Shown here: piece after piece, positions 10,990 to 45,699 of the stretch
Layout of the letters: each line of letters starts with the position of its first letter
How positions within the stretch are numbered: position 1 is the stretch's first letter
DNA from: Pseudobacteriovorax antillogorgiicola
GTDB lineage: Bacteria; Bdellovibrionota_B; Oligoflexia; Oligoflexales; RGVZ01
Reading direction: 5' to 3'
DNA length: 64,000 bases
Assembly: GCA_945865565.1 (NCBI GenBank)
Contig: CAMBEK010000004.1
Span: 88,714-152,713 of the forward strand
The notes under the pieces: generated by a model
What the model was told of the DNA's origin: nothing
Seen by the model: the letters and a program-made list of their open reading frames with translations, nothing else
Database searches by the model: none
Position numbers and translations under genes: made by a program

Positions 10990-11080
10990 TTTGCCTCAGG
11001 TTGACGCGATTGCCCGTCATCCTGAGGCAAAGCCAAAGGTTCCGCCTCGTCGTCATCCTGAGGCAAAGCCGAAGGATCCT
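10990..11080. repeat. GTCATCCTGAG-type repeat, hairpin between convergent genes
   Basis: A 17-base arm at 10990-11006 (TTTGCCTCAGGTTGACG) pairs at 16 of 17 positions with 11015-11031, with an eight-base loop. A second copy, CGTCATCCTGAGGCAAAGCC, lies at 11051-11070 and is followed by GAAGGATCC. The same core recurs at 31340 and 43530. Its position between the ends of two convergent genes suggests it may act as a bidirectional terminator; that is inference. Confidence 0.8.
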
Positions 11081-11083
11081 GTC

Positions 11084-12643
11084 TTATGGTAGTTCCGCCC
11101 GCAACCGGGCACGAACCAGCTCAGGCCACGAAGTTCCATCTTTCGACTTCCCAGAAGGCACATAAAGCCTTGTGATTTGCGCCCTGACTGCGCCCCCGTC
11201 ACCAGTATTCAGCGTGAAAAAATCCTCGATCGGATAAACTCGCGGTACCTGGCGGTCGTCTTTTTTGATCAATCGTAGTTTGAAAAGCGAAGGCTCGTCT
11301 TTTGACCCGCGTGGACGGAAGCGCGTCAACGAATTCGCACTGGAAATACGCTCAACGGGACAGCCTGCCCTGGCGATGATGTCTTCTGCCTGCGCCATCA
11401 TCCCCTCACCCGCCGAGCGGTCATCCTGTCCGCTGATTTCGAACACACGCTTCCAGATTCGCCGGTTGAGCAGCAGGTCATCCAAGGTCGCCGTGAAATC
11501 GGCGAGTTGGTCTGGCTTTTTACCCAATCGCGATTTTGCAGCATCAAGCAACGCACCGTAAATGCTGTGCTCGTCAATACGGGCGTAAAGTTCTGGATCT
11601 GCAGGCAAGGTCCACCCGGGAATATGACGAAACAGGTGCTTGATCATCGCCTCGGCTGCAACGGCAGTTTTGTGAAAGTAAAGCTGCAAGTACATCGAGT
11701 GCCGTGCACGCAGATAATCCTCGAAGGCCGCCATCCCGGAAAACTGAATCGCCAAATGCACCGATTGTTCCTTGGGGTCAAAGTACATGCCCAAAGAATT
11801 CAGGATCCGGCTTTCATCAAATATCCCGTACACAACTCCGCACTCACGGGAATCGCGCAGCAAATAGTCCATGCGATCCACGTCGAATTCACCAGAGATC
11901 AGCTCATGGCAGAAACGATAGGCCCCAAATCGCCAAAGGGGCGAACCTTCAACCGGCGGAATGTCGGGGGACATAATCGAAGCAATATCTTGCGGTTCGA
12001 TTTTCATGACTTCAGGATTCTCAGCGTAAACATCGCGAAACAGGCGTTCGAGCATGAGCAGGGTAAAAATCTCATGACGCACCGGCAGTTTAGCTGGATC
12101 CTTGCCAGCCTTGCCAAGGGCCTCGACATTCTGTTTCAACCAGCGGTCCAACCAGACCGGACGTGGGTTGGAAGATTCTTGAACGGTCTTCCAAGAGGGG
12201 AGAAATGCCTCTCCCGAATGGGAAAAAGGTGGATGACCAAGGTCGTGAAGAAGTGCAGCCAGTCGCAAGGCTTGCAGCGTATAAGACGATCCAAAAAATT
12301 CATCAACCATGTCAAATGTCGGCGAAAGCAATCCGTGACCGCCACTGCTGCGGATTTCCCGATCAGGGTAGTCGCTGAATTGACGCGCCCCGGATGCAAG
12401 GCGTTTTTGATTGGCCCAAAGTTTTTCCCACGCAACACCAGCCAGATGCATCACGCCAAGTGAGTGCTCAAATCGCGAATGGGATGCCCCAGGAAAGACA
12501 TACTGCAAGAACGCCAGTTGTTTGATGCGCCGCAAACGCTGCACATACGGGTGGGAAAGCACCCGGTCTTCGAGGTCAGAAACATCAATCGTGCCGTGAA
12601 CGTTTTCCCGGATTCGACGGACAATCGGAAGTTGAATGGACAC
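11084..12643 (-). CDS. HD-superfamily phosphohydrolase (dGTPase-like)
   Basis: 519 residues with a GTG start and GGAGGGT seven bases upstream. The metal-binding pattern is complete: HSRFEHSLGVMHLAG near residue 55, then LAALLHDLGHPPFSHSGE (the HD pair), and later DVDRMDYLLRDSRECGVVYG. This is the COG1078/YwfO type, related to dGTP triphosphohydrolases and SAMHD1, which hydrolyse nucleotides in the cytosol. The exact substrate cannot be read from sequence. The C-terminal ~200 residues are variable, as usual for the family. It lies 15 bases from the DHODH-like gene upstream on the same strand, so the two are probably co-transcribed. Confidence 0.9.
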   Translation of the reverse strand: MSIQLPIVRRIRENVHGTIDVSDLEDRVLSHPYVQRLRRIKQLAFLQYVFPGASHSRFEHSLGVMHLAGVAWEKLWANQKRLASGARQFSDYPDREIRSSGGHGLLSPTFDMVDEFFGSSYTLQALRLAALLHDLGHPPFSHSGEAFLPSWKTVQESSNPRPVWLDRWLKQNVEALGKAGKDPAKLPVRHEIFTLLMLERLFRDVYAENPEVMKIEPQDIASIMSPDIPPVEGSPLWRFGAYRFCHELISGEFDVDRMDYLLRDSRECGVVYGIFDESRILNSLGMYFDPKEQSVHLAIQFSGMAAFEDYLRARHSMYLQLYFHKTAVAAEAMIKHLFRHIPGWTLPADPELYARIDEHSIYGALLDAAKSRLGKKPDQLADFTATLDDLLLNRRIWKRVFEISGQDDRSAGEGMMAQAEDIIARAGCPVERISSANSLTRFRPRGSKDEPSLFKLRLIKKDDRQVPRVYPIEDFFTLNTGDGGAVRAQITRLYVPSGKSKDGTSWPELVRARLRAELP

Positions 12644-16300: not shown

Positions 16301-16576
16301 ATGTTAGGTAATCATGACGTTCATCAAGTGGTAGAGGCGGCTGCACCGGCCAAGAAGAAGAAGAAAAAGAAGAAGGCAGCGAAAAAGACTGCCACCAAGA
16401 AGCCTGCTGCCAAAAAAGGCAAGAAGCCTGCTGCTAAAAAAGGCAAAAAGGCTGCTGCAAAGAAGGGCAAGAAGAAGGCTGCCAAAAAAGGCAAGAAAAA
16501 GGCCGCTAAAAAGGCGACCAAGAAAAAAGCCACCAAGAAGAAGGCCAAGAAGGCCGTTCGCCGCAAGAAAAAGTAA
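16301..16576 (+). CDS. Lysine/alanine-rich histone H1-like protein
   Basis: 91 residues from the ATG at 16301, preceded by AAGGAGGAAGG. After a short acidic-neutral head (MLGNHDVHQVVEAAAPA) nearly every residue is Lys or Ala, in repeats such as KKAAKKG and KKPAAKKG. This matches the histone H1-like or AlgP/Hc1 tails that bind DNA without sequence preference. No globular domain is present, so it is all tail. It is probably a nucleoid-condensing protein; binding to RNA or another polyanion is an alternative. It is flanked by its own candidate promoter and a strong terminator, so it is expressed alone. Repeat length is likely to vary between strains. Confidence 0.8.
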   Translation: MLGNHDVHQVVEAAAPAKKKKKKKKAAKKTATKKPAAKKGKKPAAKKGKKAAAKKGKKKAAKKGKKKAAKKATKKKATKKKAKKAVRRKKK

Positions 16577-28726: not shown

Positions 28727-31327
28727 ATGAAAGGGGCCCTCAACGTCCAGGGATCCGGATTGAAGCCTGTCGATCTTGAAAAATTAGAATGGCCTCTGCT
28801 GGTCGAGACCCTGGCCGCCTTCAGCCAAACAGACGACGGGCAAACGCTTTGCCTTGAACTCGTACCCAACCTTGAGCAACCAGAGATCGAGCATCGTTGG
28901 ACGGACGTTTCTTCAATCAAGGAAATCGTGCGGCAAGGCTACCGTGCGCCTATCGGAGACTTGCCACCAATGCGCCGGATCTTCAAGGCCCTCGGCCTAG
29001 GTCAGATTCTGGGCGGAGTTGAATTACGGCAAGTCTTGCAGTTGCTCCAGGCCATTCAGAAGGTCCACGGCTTCTGCGTAAACTTCTCATCCAAGAGTCA
29101 AACCCTTGCCCGGCTAAAAAATCAGATTTACCCGGTACCGAAACTAATGACCGCCATCGAGAAGGCCATCAGCCCGGACGGGTCCTTGTTGGATGATGCG
29201 TCACCCGAACTCGCATCGATCCGCCGGAAAAAAGTTACCCTGGCAAAACGGATCGAAGACCAGATCAAAAAGGTGCTGCGCGAAGCCAGCGTCGAACAGT
29301 ATTTGCAAGACGATTTCTTTACAGTGCGCAACGAACGTTATGTCGTTCCCATTCGCCTCGATGGCCGTGGTCGCGTTCCAGGAACGATCGTCGATACGTC
29401 CGACAGCGGCCAGACCCTGTTTCTTGAGCCTTCCAGCGTTGCGCCACTCAACGCCGAATGGCTTGAAAACCAGTTGGCAGAAAAATTGGAAATCCTGCGG
29501 ATTTTCAAGACCCTCAGCGGGCAGGCTGCAACGGAACTGGATACCTTGCGCGTCGATTACGAAGAGCTTGTCCAACTTGACTTTTTGACTGCCCAGGCGG
29601 GCCTGTCCATCCAATTGGATGCCAACCCCGTTGAACTTTCCGACATACCCTTGATTGACCTGCGCGCGGCGCGCCACCCATTGATCCGAAAGGCTCCGGA
29701 ACAAATAGCACCTGAAACCGACGAAAGCGGGGAACCGAGAGAGCTGGGCACTGTTTCGCTGACAAAAATGAAGAACACGGCAGTCCCAAACACAATAACC
29801 CTTATGGGCGAGCAACGCTGCTTGATCATCTCGGGACCCAATGCCGGTGGAAAAACCGTCGTCCTCAAAACCGTGGGCATGCTCCACCTCATGGCCAAGG
29901 CAGGACTGTTGATCCCGGCCGACCCGACATCACGCCTGTACCTGTTCCATAATATTTTCCTTGAACTTGGCGACGCACAAAATCTTGCAGCGAGCCTTTC
30001 AACCTTTTCAGGCCACGTTTTTGGTCTGAAGCCGATTCTGGAAAAGGCTGGCCCGAAGGATCTGGCGCTGCTCGATGAACTTGCCGTCGGCACAGAGCCT
30101 CAAACCGGTTCGGCTCTTGCTCAGGCCGTCCTGGAAACTTTAGCCACACGTAAAACGATGACGCTGGCGACAACCCACTATGACAGCCTGAAGGGCCTTG
30201 CGGCTTCGGACGGCGGACAAGGGCAGCACCAGTTCCGCAATGCTTCGATGGAATATTTACTGAAGACAATGCGCCCAACTTACAAGCTGATCCTTGATGT
30301 CCCAGGCCAAAGTTACGGACTCGAGGTCGCGAGCCAGATCGGTTTGCCAGGTTCAGTGATCGAACGGGCAAAGCAATTACGTGGAACAAGCGCGTCAACA
30401 ATGGAGAATGCAGTCAATCAACTTTTGGTTGCCCGCGAGGAAACGGAAAACATCCGCGGAGAATTGCGCCAGAAGGAGCTTGCCGTCGATGAGTCCCGGG
30501 CGCGCCTGGAGGTAGAACGCAAGGCGCTTGAAGAGGCCCGGCGCGAAGCCGCCCGCAAAGCCGCACAGAATCAAGAAGTCGAACTGGACGAAATGCGCCA
30601 GAGCATCCGGGACCTTCAAGATGAACTCAAAGCAGCACTTAAAGCACTGCGACAAGCTGAAGCCGGCGACGCCTCCCATGCCATGGCAGTGGCGGCGAGC
30701 ATAGCGACTTCATCGAGTGACACGATGCGCCAATTTGACCAAAAGTCCCGGGACATCCTGGCCCGCGGGCGCGAGGGCGAAGTCCTTCCGGGGCGGACCA
30801 TCAGTGCTGGAGAAATCCTGCGTACGGGGCAAAGGGTGTTCGTTGTCCCTCTTAGAAAAGAAGGGCAGATCCTGCGACCAGCCGAAGGCGACAATGCTCC
30901 CGCCGAAATTCAGGTCGGCCTGGTGAAGCTGCGGGTCCCGGCCCACGATCTGCGGGTCATGCCAGACGCAGGGTCCAATGAATCGGGCAAGGCAACGACC
31001 CGCGGGAAACCGGTGCCGCTGGTAAAACTGAAACCTCTGAATCCACCGCCTGAAATTCCGGCGTTGGTATTGCAATCACCGACCAATACGTTGGATCTCC
31101 GTGGGCAGGATGCCGATACCGCGGTTTCAAAGACCCTGGACTTTATCGACCACGCACTTTTACGTGGCGAGAGTGCTTTAGTCATTGTCCACGGTCATGG
31201 CACAGACCGACTTAAAAATGCGATTCGCAAATGCCTGCGCAGCGATTGCCCTTACAATATCGCCTTTCGTGCCGGCGAGAACACGGAGGGGGGCGACGGC
31301 GTCACCATCATCGCCCTCAAGGGGTAA
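28727..31327 (+). CDS. mutS2: MutS2 endonuclease-type ATPase with Smr domain
   Basis: 866 residues. The first recognisable block (VDLEKLEWPLLVETLAAF) is the MutS2 core start. The ABC ATPase has Walker A GPNAGGKTVVLKT (~369) and the conserved LSTFSGHV and LDELAVGTEP segments. A long coiled coil follows (~560-660). The C-terminal Smr nuclease domain is intact (LDLRGQDADTA, VIVHGHGTDRLK). It acts in recombination control or on stalled ribosomes. The ATG has only a weak ribosome site and lies 96 bases after the divergent pilD start. The next gene starts three bases after its stop. Confidence 0.95.
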   Translation: MKGALNVQGSGLKPVDLEKLEWPLLVETLAAFSQTDDGQTLCLELVPNLEQPEIEHRWTDVSSIKEIVRQGYRAPIGDLPPMRRIFKALGLGQILGGVELRQVLQLLQAIQKVHGFCVNFSSKSQTLARLKNQIYPVPKLMTAIEKAISPDGSLLDDASPELASIRRKKVTLAKRIEDQIKKVLREASVEQYLQDDFFTVRNERYVVPIRLDGRGRVPGTIVDTSDSGQTLFLEPSSVAPLNAEWLENQLAEKLEILRIFKTLSGQAATELDTLRVDYEELVQLDFLTAQAGLSIQLDANPVELSDIPLIDLRAARHPLIRKAPEQIAPETDESGEPRELGTVSLTKMKNTAVPNTITLMGEQRCLIISGPNAGGKTVVLKTVGMLHLMAKAGLLIPADPTSRLYLFHNIFLELGDAQNLAASLSTFSGHVFGLKPILEKAGPKDLALLDELAVGTEPQTGSALAQAVLETLATRKTMTLATTHYDSLKGLAASDGGQGQHQFRNASMEYLLKTMRPTYKLILDVPGQSYGLEVASQIGLPGSVIERAKQLRGTSASTMENAVNQLLVAREETENIRGELRQKELAVDESRARLEVERKALEEARREAARKAAQNQEVELDEMRQSIRDLQDELKAALKALRQAEAGDASHAMAVAASIATSSSDTMRQFDQKSRDILARGREGEVLPGRTISAGEILRTGQRVFVVPLRKEGQILRPAEGDNAPAEIQVGLVKLRVPAHDLRVMPDAGSNESGKATTRGKPVPLVKLKPLNPPPEIPALVLQSPTNTLDLRGQDADTAVSKTLDFIDHALLRGESALVIVHGHGTDRLKNAIRKCLRSDCPYNIAFRAGENTEGGDGVTIIALKG

Positions 31328-31330
31328 ACG

Positions 31331-32377
31331 ATGCGTTTCGTCATCCTGAGCCGTTCCCTCATCCTGAGCCGTTCCCTCATCCTGAGCCGTTCCGTCATCC
31401 TGAGCCGTTCCGTCATCCTGCGCTGCTCCGTCATCCTGAGCGCAGCGAAGGATCTTTTCTTTTTAATCTTCCTGCCACTAGCCTCAACCGCGGCCCTCGC
31501 CTGCCCCGAAACGCCGAGCGGCCCTGACTTGATCAATCTTTTCATCAATTCCACCGAAGTGACTTCCGTTCAATTTCTCAAGATTGAAAGCGAAGGATCC
31601 TCCGTCAACGCTTGGCGCTTCAAAGTATCCGCCACCCTCAAACCCGCTAACGCTCCATTGACTGGAAAGGTCAGTTTTTTTGCAAAGCCAGGCCATGCTG
31701 TTTTCAATGCACCAAGGTTCAATGACCGGTACCTGGCATTTATCACAAAGAAAACGGTCGATTTACCCTTCGCCCTGAAAAATTACTTTTTTTCCCCGGA
31801 GGATGAGTCGTCCACGAGTTGCATTTACCGGTCTTCAATCTATCTCGAAGATCTCCTCAAGAAGTCAGCATCCGTAGAAGCGGTTCGCGATGGAACATGC
31901 AAAATCCAGCTAAAAAATCTGGAAGCCGCTCCGCTCATCAAGGAAGCCTTGAAATTCCGGTGTGAGAATCCCGATTTGGAAAAAAAGAGGCTCGTGCTTT
32001 TGGCCAATGCTTACGCCAGCGCAAAGCGATACGGCAACGCTGTCACTGCACTCGAGATGTCCAACGGCACCCTGAACGCGTACACCCTTTCCATCACCCT
32101 CGGCTGGGCTGATGAATGGGAAGTCAAAGACGATCGCGCTGCAAAACGTTTCGTTGAACGAATTCTGACTTCTGGCCTGCGCGGGCACATGGAAAAAACA
32201 AGGCAATTGCCTGCCGTCAATGACATTCTAAATGACAAATCGCGTTTTCGACGCCTGCGTGACACCGACTGGTTTACGCCTCTCCTGACCAACTGGATCG
32301 CAAACAATTTTCCGGCTGTGCCAAATCCGCTCGAGCCCCCAAAAAAACTGCCACTAAAATTACGGAAGACCCCATAA
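31331..32377 (+). CDS. Secreted protein whose N-terminus is made of DNA repeats
   Basis: 348 residues. The only plausible start in frame is the ATG at 31331, after AAGGGG. Residues 4-38 come from the repeat array and read VILSRS six times over with variations. Only then come the natural hydrophobic core (DLFFLIFLPLASTAALA) and the cysteine after it (CPETPSGP). The body shows VSATLKPANAPLTGKVSFFA and a later helical part (KKRLVLLANAYASAKRYGNA) that looks TPR-like. Four cysteines may form disulfides. No family recognised. It follows mutS2 by three bases and precedes the ABC-F gene by three. Whether the repeat-extended leader is still exported is unknown. Confidence 0.65.
   Translation: MRFVILSRSLILSRSLILSRSVILSRSVILRCSVILSAAKDLFFLIFLPLASTAALACPETPSGPDLINLFINSTEVTSVQFLKIESEGSSVNAWRFKVSATLKPANAPLTGKVSFFAKPGHAVFNAPRFNDRYLAFITKKTVDLPFALKNYFFSPEDESSTSCIYRSSIYLEDLLKKSASVEAVRDGTCKIQLKNLEAAPLIKEALKFRCENPDLEKKRLVLLANAYASAKRYGNAVTALEMSNGTLNAYTLSITLGWADEWEVKDDRAAKRFVERILTSGLRGHMEKTRQLPAVNDILNDKSRFRRLRDTDWFTPLLTNWIANNFPAVPNPLEPPKKLPLKLRKTP
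31340..31456 (+). repeat. Tandem 18-base GTCATCCTGAGCCGTTCC repeats inside a coding region
   Basis: Five consecutive 18-base units (31340-31429; units 2 and 3 begin C, unit 5 has changes) are followed by the terminal GTCATCCTGAGCGCAGCGAA form. Each unit equals six codons, so the frame of the overlapping gene is preserved. The core is shared with 10990 and 43530. Confidence 0.9.
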
Positions 32378-32380
32378 CCG

Positions 32381-34225
32381 ATGGCTAATGAATCGTCCCG
32401 CAACCTTTTGCAACTGACCGCAGGGACTAAATCCTTCGGAACAAAAATTCTTTTTTCAAATTCCACCTTCAGCATCAATGAAAACGAACGTGTTGGTGTC
32501 ATTGGCCCTAATGGCGCTGGCAAATCAACGCTGTTCCGAATCATCACTGGGGATGATGTTCTCGACGAAGGACGCCTCGTCAAAAAGAGCAACCTGCGCA
32601 TGGCGATCCTGCGTCAGGACCAGCAACTTCCCCTGGAACTTGACGGTCTGACCTACATTCAGGAACAATCCGGTGCTCAGATTTGGGAAATCACTGACCT
32701 TCTGGATCGCCTTGCCTTGCCCGAGGCGATTGTCCAACGCCCCCTCGGGGAATTATCGGGCGGTTACCGGATGCGCATCCAACTGTGCGCTCTTGTTGCC
32801 GCAAAACCAGACCTGCTTCTACTTGACGAGCCGACAAACTATCTGGATATCCAGACGCTGATCGTCCTGGAAGACCTTTTGATCAATTTGGATTGTACGT
32901 TTCTGTTGATTTCACACGACCGGGAATTCCTGAGGCGGACGACAGATCACATCCTGGAAGTCGAGCAGGGCGATATCATCAAGTATCCAGGAACGATTGA
33001 CGATTACTTTGAACAAAAGTCCTTGCTGCGCGACCAACTTGAAAAGACATCGCGCGGCGTCGAGGCCCGCAAACAAACAATTCGCGATTTCGCCGCCCGT
33101 TTTGGCGCGAAAGCCAGTAAAGCCCGGGCGGCACAAAGTCGCTTGAAACAGCTCGACAAGATGGAGTCGATCGACATTAAGCCCCTGCCGGCCATGGCAC
33201 GGATCAGCATCCCCCAACCCAACACTCCAGGACGGATTGACGTGATCGCCCGCGACATCGTTCTTGGTTATGGTGAGCGAACGATCCTTCGCAACGCATC
33301 CTTTGAGATCACATCGGGCGACAAGGTTGCCATCGTCGGTGAAAACGGCGCCGGAAAATCCACCCTGGTCAAATCCATCGCCGGGCGACTCGATCCAAAA
33401 TCTGGAAGCCTGCAGCAAAGTGCTGCTGTGCGCTGCGCCTATTATGCCCAACACGTCGCGGCGGAACTCCCCGCCAACTCCACCGTCATCGACGTCCTGA
33501 CGGATGCCGCTCCCCACACTGCACCGAATCAACAAATCCTTGACCTGGCCGGCAGCCTGCTTTTTTCTGGCAACGACGTCAAAAAGCGGATCGGAAATTT
33601 ATCTGGGGGCGAAAAGGCCCGTGTTGCCTTGGGGAAGATTCTGCTCAGTGGCAGCAACCTTTTGATCCTTGATGAGCCCACCAACCACTTAGACTTTTAC
33701 ACGGTCGAGGCCTTGGCCCACAGCCTGCATACTTTCAAAGGCAACGTAATTTTTGTCAGTCACGACCAGACTTTCGTCAAAACCGTCGCAACCAAGATCA
33801 TTGAAGTACACGACGGTACCGCTACCATCTTTCACGGATCTTACGACGACTACATCTGGAGCCTCCGCCGCGGCAGTATGCGCCGGGACTCCAATGATGA
33901 GTCAAATACATCGCAGGCATCTCGCGCCCATTCAAAAAAATCTGATGCAGCAAATTCCAACAACGCCGCCAATCCGCCTCTACCCGGCCACCGCGAGGAA
34001 CGGGAACGCCAAAAGCAAATCGCCACCCAACGTCGCCGCATGGAAAAACGCAGCGGCGAAATCGAAACGCGCCTGGCTAAACTTCAAATAGAACAAGAAA
34101 AAATGGCTGCTGATCTTGATTTCGCGCCGTCCAACCAGGAACTCATGGCGAAACTGGGGGCGGTTGCAATTGAAATACAGGCCCTCGAATCTGAATGGAT
34201 CGAAGTCTTGTCTGAACTTTCCTAA
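32381..34225 (+). CDS. ABC-F family ATPase (Uup/EttA-like)
   Basis: 614 residues with two ABC domains and no membrane part, as in ABC-F ribosome-associated factors. Walker A GPNGAGKST at ~42 and GENGAGKST at ~319. Signatures LSGGYRMRIQLC and LSGGEKARVALG, each followed by LLLLDEPTNYLD or LLILDEPTNHLD. A linker of ~80 residues between domains holds the P-site-contacting helices. The C-terminus is a charged coiled coil (REERERQKQIATQRRRMEKR), as in Uup. It is likely a translation or Holliday-junction-related factor. A decayed copy of its 3' end lies 0.9 kb downstream. Confidence 0.94.
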   Translation: MANESSRNLLQLTAGTKSFGTKILFSNSTFSINENERVGVIGPNGAGKSTLFRIITGDDVLDEGRLVKKSNLRMAILRQDQQLPLELDGLTYIQEQSGAQIWEITDLLDRLALPEAIVQRPLGELSGGYRMRIQLCALVAAKPDLLLLDEPTNYLDIQTLIVLEDLLINLDCTFLLISHDREFLRRTTDHILEVEQGDIIKYPGTIDDYFEQKSLLRDQLEKTSRGVEARKQTIRDFAARFGAKASKARAAQSRLKQLDKMESIDIKPLPAMARISIPQPNTPGRIDVIARDIVLGYGERTILRNASFEITSGDKVAIVGENGAGKSTLVKSIAGRLDPKSGSLQQSAAVRCAYYAQHVAAELPANSTVIDVLTDAAPHTAPNQQILDLAGSLLFSGNDVKKRIGNLSGGEKARVALGKILLSGSNLLILDEPTNHLDFYTVEALAHSLHTFKGNVIFVSHDQTFVKTVATKIIEVHDGTATIFHGSYDDYIWSLRRGSMRRDSNDESNTSQASRAHSKKSDAANSNNAANPPLPGHREERERQKQIATQRRRMEKRSGEIETRLAKLQIEQEKMAADLDFAPSNQELMAKLGAVAIEIQALESEWIEVLSELS

Positions 34226-43512: not shown

Positions 43513-43529
43513 GAAAAGATTCTTCGGCC

Positions 43530-43625
43530 TGCGGCCTCAGAATGACGGGGCACCCCCGTCATTCTGAGGCCGCACCCCCGTCATCCTGAGCCGCACCCCC
43601 GTCATCCTGAGCCGCAGGCGAAGGA
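43530..43625. repeat. GTCATTCTGAGG-type repeat array with perfect 21-bp hairpin
   Basis: 43530-43550 (TGCGGCCTCAGAATGACGGGG) pairs perfectly with 43554-43574, leaving a three-base loop. Two more 21-base units (CCCCCGTCATCCTGAGCCGCA) follow at 43575-43595 and 43596-43616, then the GGCGAAGGATCC tail. It sits between convergent genes, like the copy at 10990. Confidence 0.92.
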
Positions 43626-43632
43626 TCCTTTC

Positions 43633-45699
43633 TTAGAACCCAGCGCCAACGGACAGCATCCAGGCTCTGCCGGGCAACGGAATACCCCAAATATCAGAAT
43701 AACCCGTCTTTCCATCCTGCCCCGATGTAGTCCGGTAGCTCGTTGCCACCGCATCAGCGACATTGGTGACCATAAATCCAATTTCCAAATCCAATGGACG
43801 AGAAATGATGCTCCCACCATCGCTACGCCATTTCACGTCCAATGCAGCATCATGAACCCACCACGGCGGAAGTAAAATATCATTAGCAACATCCCGGTAT
43901 AAAAGTCCCCTTCGACGCGATGTCCAACGGGCCACAGCCGATCGCCAGGGCCGACGGAACAAGGGTTGGGAAAGGCTAATCGCTCCTTGGTCTACTGGCA
44001 CCCCAGGAATTAAAAGGTTTTTCCCATCACCACTTTTCGAACGAAACCAAACCCACGACGCACTAGACCGCAAGGCACCCGCCAGGAATAAATCCCAGGA
44101 CCTTTCAAAATTAAATTCAATTCCCGTAACGGAGCTTGCTTCGCCCAGGTTGATCGCGCGGTAGCTTGAAATGCTCGACGGAACAATCACGATCGCATTT
44201 TGACGATCATCGTGAAACATGGCCAGGTGCAGAGAAGCCCACCCAGACTCGTCGTCACGATCTACCCCAACTTCAAAATGGCTCATTTCTTCGGGCCGGA
44301 CGTCGCTCGAAGGAATGATCTGGGCACCATCACCCTCTGACTCCAGTAAACTCGGAGGCCGCATCTCCGACGCAATCTGAACGTACGCGCGAAAATCAAG
44401 TGGCAGTGGAGCCTGCCATCCGGCAGACCAGGCGGGGCGTGTCTCAGCGAACTCACCACCGGAAAATCTGGCGGCATCTGCCTTTAGCTCGATGCTGCCA
44501 AGGGTTGACTGGTCCTCTGCGATCCGGATCGCCGCCATGGTGTGGCGAGTGCCGCGAGAAAGTTTCTGTGAGGGCAACTTAGATTCGTCGGCGCGAAATA
44601 ATATTCGACACTGCCCGAGCGTCCCGATGCAGTCACCGCGCCAACCGGCATCGCCCGATCGCGTCATGATGACCCGCTCGTCATGATCACGCACGATCAA
44701 AATGTCACCACCGGGATCGTCAACAGTACGCCGGTCGGAAATCAATCCGAGAGCTGCATCAAACGAGTCTGATGGTCCAGCATCCTGCTGAATGGAAATG
44801 CGTCCGATTCCCAGGTTGTGATTTTGCCGCGCTAAATTTGTCCCCGACTGTTGCAGCAAAGATGGCAGGCCTTGTCGCGCCTGGCTCCAAACGCCAAACC
44901 CCCTCAAAATCGTAGTTTGATTTCGCACCAAAAAAGCGGGCATGGCAAATCGCGATACCCGGTCGTTGTTCCGGCGCCGGATCACCGAATCATCCTCATG
45001 ATTCAACGGGGTACCGTTGTCATCGTAATAGCGGAAGTTTCCCCGGCTGTTCAGTTGACGAAGGTACAGGCGTGACCGAAAGTTTTCGCCGCTGGATTCG
45101 GCCCGAACTGAAGTTGTTGTTGCCATGGGTTCTGCGATGCGCAAACCAAATTTTTGACCTGCAAAATTTTGACCCGACAGCGCCTGATCCTGATCGCCCT
45201 CAAACAAACGAAACCGCAAGGCTCCACGGGAAGCCACGGCCGGCAAATCAAACGGAGCCGCGCCTGACGTTGCCTCGACAGAATCAAAGGCGGGAAGGTC
45301 CATCTCTTCAACGAGGGGTAGAGCGGCATAGGGATCGACAAGGGGCAAGTCATCCACAAACAACTGGGTGAACCTGGCATCTTGCCCGCGCACCCGTGGC
45401 AGAGTGAAACCGAAGGGCGACGGGCGTTCTGAGGGGGCTGCGTCAAAGGCCCCCTGGCGTTTCAAGTGTGACGTCAGATCGTCCTGGGATGACCCATTGG
45501 GAAAGAACTTCAGACCAGAGCCAGGATATTCAATCCGAGTTTGATCTGGTCTGCGGCCGCGAACAACCACCCTGTTGTCCTGAGCCTGGACTGTCGATCC
45601 CCAAAGAAAAGAATTTGCAATCAGAGTCGCTGATATCCGGGTCCACATCCCCGTGTCCGTTAAAAAAAATTTTTGATTTCTCCGAAGCTTTCCCGTCAT
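43633..45699 (-). CDS. TonB-dependent outer-membrane receptor
   Basis: 688 residues. A signal peptide (ISATLIANSFLWGSTVQAQD) is followed by a plug-like region (DNRVVVRGRRPDQTRI, FVDDLPLVDPYAALPLVEEM, DSVEATSGAAPFDLPA) and then a barrel that ends with the terminal Phe (WMLSVGAGF). Plug and barrel fit a TonB-dependent receptor, but a classic TonB box is only weakly visible. It overlaps no other gene, and the upstream lipoprotein stops immediately before its ATG, so the two are one operon. Substrate unknown (siderophore, vitamin or glycan). The ATG at 45648 is an alternative start. Confidence 0.85.
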   Translation of the reverse strand: MTGKLRRNQKFFLTDTGMWTRISATLIANSFLWGSTVQAQDNRVVVRGRRPDQTRIEYPGSGLKFFPNGSSQDDLTSHLKRQGAFDAAPSERPSPFGFTLPRVRGQDARFTQLFVDDLPLVDPYAALPLVEEMDLPAFDSVEATSGAAPFDLPAVASRGALRFRLFEGDQDQALSGQNFAGQKFGLRIAEPMATTTSVRAESSGENFRSRLYLRQLNSRGNFRYYDDNGTPLNHEDDSVIRRRNNDRVSRFAMPAFLVRNQTTILRGFGVWSQARQGLPSLLQQSGTNLARQNHNLGIGRISIQQDAGPSDSFDAALGLISDRRTVDDPGGDILIVRDHDERVIMTRSGDAGWRGDCIGTLGQCRILFRADESKLPSQKLSRGTRHTMAAIRIAEDQSTLGSIELKADAARFSGGEFAETRPAWSAGWQAPLPLDFRAYVQIASEMRPPSLLESEGDGAQIIPSSDVRPEEMSHFEVGVDRDDESGWASLHLAMFHDDRQNAIVIVPSSISSYRAINLGEASSVTGIEFNFERSWDLFLAGALRSSASWVWFRSKSGDGKNLLIPGVPVDQGAISLSQPLFRRPWRSAVARWTSRRRGLLYRDVANDILLPPWWVHDAALDVKWRSDGGSIISRPLDLEIGFMVTNVADAVATSYRTTSGQDGKTGYSDIWGIPLPGRAWMLSVGAGF

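Follow-up and report, generated by a model that had tools for sequence, protein, structure and literature searches.

A REP-like element, amplified in place, as the probable leader n-region of a predicted exported protein in Pseudobacteriovorax antillogorgiicola

A tandem array of 18-bp units derived from a dispersed REP-like element occupies, in an open frame, the 5' end of a gene for a predicted exported protein in Pseudobacteriovorax antillogorgiicola (assembly GCA_945865565.1). We consider it likely, at a probability of about 75%, that a REP-like insertion was amplified in place here and is translated as a removable, probably near-neutral n-region of the leader. All coordinates are positions in the window, the 64,000-nt stretch of contig CAMBEK010000004.1 that was analysed. 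The genome it comes from (G000) is a 2.5-Mb draft and was compared with three further genomes of the genus, the sister species G001 and the species G002 and G003, all four being drafts of about 90% completeness.

The array and the dispersed element

A period-18 array was found by TRF at 31334-31441 (6.0 copies, 92% matches), and the core GTCATCCTGAGC, allowing at most one mismatch, starts at 31340, 31358, 31376, 31394, 31412 and 31430. Ten such matches occur in the window against 0.32 expected, a number reached in none of 100 shuffles. On the forward strand, the array comprises five 18-bp half-units (31340-31429), each consisting of the core and the spacer CGTTCC, which is also used in G001, and a terminal complete REP-like unit, GTCATCCTGAGCGCAGCGAAGGATCTTTTCTT (31430-31461). 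The half-units read (V/L)ILSRS and the terminal unit reads VILSAAKDLFF, giving in frame 1 M-RF-VILSRS-LILSRS-LILSRS-VILSRS-VILRCS-VILSAAKDLFF. The original prediction of five 18-base units plus a terminal unit encoding ILSRSL/VILSRS repeats directly after the ATG is thus confirmed by TRF, the pattern search and the reading frame. Unit numbers were read from the assemblies; an array of about 110 bp is short enough for ordinary reads to span.

All 32 positions of the terminal unit agree with the dispersed element, and identical copies lie elsewhere in G000 at C3:185078, C20:1588 and C25:11094. The consensus of the element is GTCATCCTGAGCG(N)AGCGAAGGATC(C/T)TTTCTT, and its exact 13-mer GTCATCCTGAGCG occurs 88 times in G000, 123 times in G001 and three times each in G002 and G003, with a patchy distribution elsewhere in the order Oligoflexales. 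Its head is C-GTCATCC (CCTC in two units) with an AT pair opening the stem, and its tail is CCTTTCTT or CTTTTCTT, not CCA. A full unit folds into a small hairpin of 5 + 2 pairs around two G.A mismatches, and longer head-to-head pairs of the element form strong palindromes (z −4.9). As judged from these sequences, the 18-mer is not a stand-alone unit but half of a longer palindrome, its head, joined to a six-base spacer.

The 32/32 match and the open frame also uphold the claim that a dispersed repeat has become coding sequence at the N-terminus of a protein predicted to be exported. The array had further been placed ahead of an 'original' hydrophobic signal core. Its position is as described, but the element extends to 31461 (GGATCTTTTCTT) and so encodes D41-L-F-F, which makes the first core residues, DLFF, a product of the repeat tail and the word 'original' only partly right. 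The mobility implied by calling the repeat selfish found no backing, as no match to the Y1 transposase (PF01797) was present in G000-G003 at their completeness of about 90%; a RAYT/Y1 transposase as the mover of the element was accordingly rejected for the four congeners.

We surveyed G000 and G001 for arrays of this element by pattern searches and inspection of sequence stretches, and classified 57 distinct arrays, a count that leaves out the window copy on account of its mismatches. Periods ranged from 17 to 24 and were mostly 20 or 18, and the spacer was usually constant within a locus and different between loci. Half-unit arrays preceding a full unit were common at intergenic sites of G000, and the frequency of such arrays with locus-specific spacers indicates that the element generally tends to be amplified in place. 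The only clear N-terminal coding case among the 57 arrays was the G001 ortholog of the host gene; the remaining arrays lay between genes, in ORFs of doubtful status or at a C-terminal end. Literature searches with the repeat DNA GTCATCCTGAGC or the peptides HPERSEGS and ILSAAKDL returned no paper on the repeat, only unrelated titles in which the letters were probably those of primers.

It had been pointed out that a unit length divisible by three allows copy number to change in frame. Such a change did occur, as shown below, yet the number 18 appears to carry no special meaning. Periods divisible by three (18, 21 or 24) were found in 18 of the 57 arrays, with no sign of selection favouring them. 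The core contains a TGA that is brought into frame in a longer array of non-divisible period, so a coding array must have a period divisible by three. Divisibility, on this evidence, is a filter rather than an adaptation, and no further assumption about 18 is needed.

Several other repeats were seen along the way. At 43513-43636 of the window, the same repeat occurs as an inverted pair, its tandem head having a 21-bp unit (GCACCCCCGTCATCCTGAGCC), in the space separating a 288-aa ORF from a convergent 688-aa ORF on the opposite strand. Variant copies (GTCATCCTGAGG...) at 11016-11085 lie directly 3' of a 90-aa ORF that resembles, by eye, an HU-type DNA-binding protein, and tandem repeats of 24-27 bp (CAAGAAGCCTGCTGCCAAAAAAGG) at 16352-16551 possibly encode a lysine/alanine-rich histone H1-like tail. 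In G001 (contig C8; locus L049, 1501-1607), an array with a 19-bp period encodes the final residues and stop (HPEQNPSS*) of a 398-codon ORF. A REP pair with period 23 (loci L042 and L065, about 1500-1570) is nearly identical between both sister species and ends just before the likely ATG of a gene resembling, by eye, cytochrome c peroxidase. G008, from another genus of the family, carries a long 18-bp array of about ten copies of a related unit (GTCATATTGAGCAAAGCC; locus L014, 1506-1690) directly 3' of a gene resembling, by eye, that for prolyl-tRNA synthetase.

The host gene and its predicted leader

The host gene (31331-32377, forward strand, 348 codons) has orthologs in the three congeners and encodes a predicted exported protein not assigned to a known family. 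On the same strand it is flanked by mutS2 upstream (28727-31327; MutS_V and Smr domains by Pfam) and by a gene for an ABC-F type ATPase downstream (32381-34225; Pfam). Searches of Pfam, NCBIfam and PDB with the mature domain (31502-32374) gave zero matches, and the AlphaFold model of the host protein was too poor for use (pLDDT 41). Between G000 and G001, the mature part shows a dN of 0.10 and a dS of 0.81 (dN/dS about 0.12), indicating strong purifying selection and hence that the gene is alive. Matches in G008 and G040 were rejected as orthologs, being unrelated arrays of similar repeats. Two ORFs that overlap the array, one of 98 aa through it (31231-31527, reading HPEPF) and an antisense one of 100 aa (31252-31554, reading RLRMTE), were dismissed: a repeat without stops yields such frames as a by-product.

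The ATG at 31331 is the sole in-frame ATG, GTG or TTG before codon 67, a TTG that lies beyond the signal core, in agreement with the claim that the only usable ATG precedes the array. A Shine-Dalgarno-like AAGGGG (31319-31324) sits within the final mutS2 codons, 6 nt 5' of this ATG. The gene begins only a few bases from the mutS2 stop in each of the four congeners (with a GTG start in G002), preceded by AAGGGG or AAGGGA in the closing part of mutS2, and this shared position and AAGGGR motif support a start upstream of the array. Since the start and ribosome site lie upstream, and no other usable start intervenes before the mature protein is reached, translation should run through the array as the n-region of the leader. 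We regard this as well supported by the sequence comparison, by the purifying selection on the mature part and by the leader layout described next.

The leader, as translated from the sequence, is organised like a Sec signal peptide. Its n-region carries a net charge of +6, its core LFFLIFLPLASTA has a mean hydropathy of 2.2 over 13 residues, and small residues occupy positions −3 and −1 in the ALA before Cys58. The hydrophobic core and c-region, LFFLIFLPLASTAALA (31454-31501, forward strand), were delimited by hydropathy, with predicted cleavage at ALA|C; A-L-A or T-L-A precedes the Cys in G000, G001 and G002. Export and cleavage are therefore predicted from this layout. The n-region is 41 residues long in the window compared with 23 in G003. 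No report of tandem repeats in signal peptide n-regions came up in a literature search.

Comparison across congeners and competing readings

The original prediction proposed comparing unit number in close strains; here the comparison was made between species. G000 has five half-units and G001 two with the same spacer, and the in-frame gap between them is exactly 54 nt, or three units. The terminal unit is identical at 38 of 39 positions between these two species, whereas identity is about 78-86% across the bulk of the gene and 91% where mutS2 ends. This high conservation could reflect constraint on the DNA or RNA, or conversion from other copies of the element.

As an alternative to the leader reading, the array might act as RNA or DNA, with the terminal REP hairpin affecting mRNA stability or the coupling of mutS2 to the host gene and with translation being incidental. 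The array does sit between two genes that probably form an operon, beginning 12 nt after the mutS2 stop, while REPs typically lie just past gene 3' ends (PMC3733652); the conserved terminal unit and the hairpin formed by a complete unit would also fit such a role. However, the tandem half-units are not built to pair with themselves, the 200-nt start region folds no better than shuffled sequences (z −0.66), and the frame is open across all units in both array-bearing species. We therefore think it unlikely that the array acts chiefly as a nucleic acid.

The difference in unit number bears on the suggestion that the repeats provide a variable-length leader. Length indeed varies between species (5 versus 2 units), but no sign was found that it has a functional effect. 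In an adaptive version of this idea, unit number would tune synthesis or export of the protein and slippage would make the array a contingency-type locus; if true, repeat slippage would serve as a heritable rheostat for synthesis or export. The in-frame difference between the sister species speaks for it. Against it, steps of 18 nt are unable to switch the frame, equal array growth occurs at intergenic loci without any protein, and the substitutions among units (V to L, SR to RC and V to D) all change amino acids. These changes are too few to be tested statistically, but they give no sign of purifying selection on the array peptide. Adaptive tuning thus seems improbable. Initiation downstream of the array, for example at the TTG of codon 67 or at a non-canonical codon, is more doubtful still: although mis-annotation is common where REPs lie at annotated N-termini (PMC3733652), beginning at codon 67 would lose the entire hydrophobic core, codons 2-66 include no ATG, GTG or TTG, and the start beside mutS2 is retained even by species that lack a clear array.

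G003, which has no recognisable array, may retain a trace of the insertion. The sequence GATCTTTTCTT begins 66 nt past the A of the ATG in both G001 and G003, and the G003 leader matches the element in register at 25 of 32 positions, a score reached in none of 20000 dinucleotide shuffles. When the shared DLFF codons are excluded, 14 of 21 positions still match in register (p 0.0004). In G002, nothing similar to the element was detected (p 0.10). The G003 leader is probably a decayed, still in-frame copy of the element, although part of the resemblance could be coincidental. On the simplest reading, the match in register indicates that the insertion predates the G003 split.

Taken in order, amplification in place with translation as a leader would have proceeded as follows. 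In an ancestor shared by G000 and G001 at the least, and probably by G003 as well, a REP-like palindrome would have entered an exported protein's gene at the 5' end of its coding region. Replication slippage or unequal recombination would then have multiplied the palindrome's head half at this site, 18 bp at a time, with units later lost or regained in each lineage. The ribosome would initiate beside mutS2 and read through the array, which would simply give a Sec signal peptide a long n-region carrying positive charge. The hydrophobic core would engage the Sec machinery and, as the layout suggests, signal peptidase would remove everything before Cys58. The array peptide itself would be near-neutral filler in which only the open frame, the positive charge and the hydrophobic core are kept. 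The congener comparison revealed no sign of selection on array length or peptide sequence, and our best bet is that the array is a neutral passenger.

Related systems and significance

The closest known systems are REPs within ORFs and the Rickettsia palindromic elements. CGTC-tagged REPs occur inside ORFs, including at N-termini, and their clusters encode 43 to 82 residues, though the authors caution that many of those at N-termini may lie outside genes (Di Nocera et al. 2013, PMC3733652). Our element, likened to these REPs by description rather than by a family consensus, shares with them a CGTC head (here CCTC too), an AT pair opening the stem, a stem of about 9 positions, many dispersed copies, an occasional location at ORF N-termini and the lack of any dedicated transposase found (PMC3733652). 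It differs in the two adjacent G.A mismatches of its stem, in its non-CCA tail, most CGTC REP tails fitting CCA, and in the tandem amplification of the head half alone, grouped elements being rare among CGTC REPs (PMC3733652).

Rickettsia palindromic elements are about 150 bp long and lie in frame in many genes (reviewed in PMC10969869), and N-terminal examples are reported to be expressed (PMC3733652). Like ours, they are dispersed palindromes retained in frame inside coding genes (PMC10969869). In-frame insertion in several unrelated proteins, a trait of the Rickettsia elements, was not seen among the 57 arrays of G000 and G001 in a survey that covered arrays; here a single orthologous gene carries an N-terminal 18-bp array, whereas the Rickettsia elements are not tandem half-units. 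In-frame insertions of the Coxiella QMITE supply protein ends (PMC5896051), as does the mobile-type repeat described here, but QMITE is a MITE with a different structure and no tandem units. Coding minisatellites have in common with our array a unit length divisible by three and in-frame changes in copy number; in contrast to them, the unit here is one part of an element dispersed across the genome, and it lies in a leader expected to be removed.

The event described here is thus of a known kind, and what this case adds is good comparative evidence of coding. N-terminal REPs in ORFs are often blamed on annotation error, and the comparison of four congeners provides good evidence that the coding is real in this instance. 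In G003, the repeat has probably decayed into an ordinary-looking leader. Together, these leaders offer a worked example of how dispersed repeats may provide the sequence from which a tolerant part of a protein is built.
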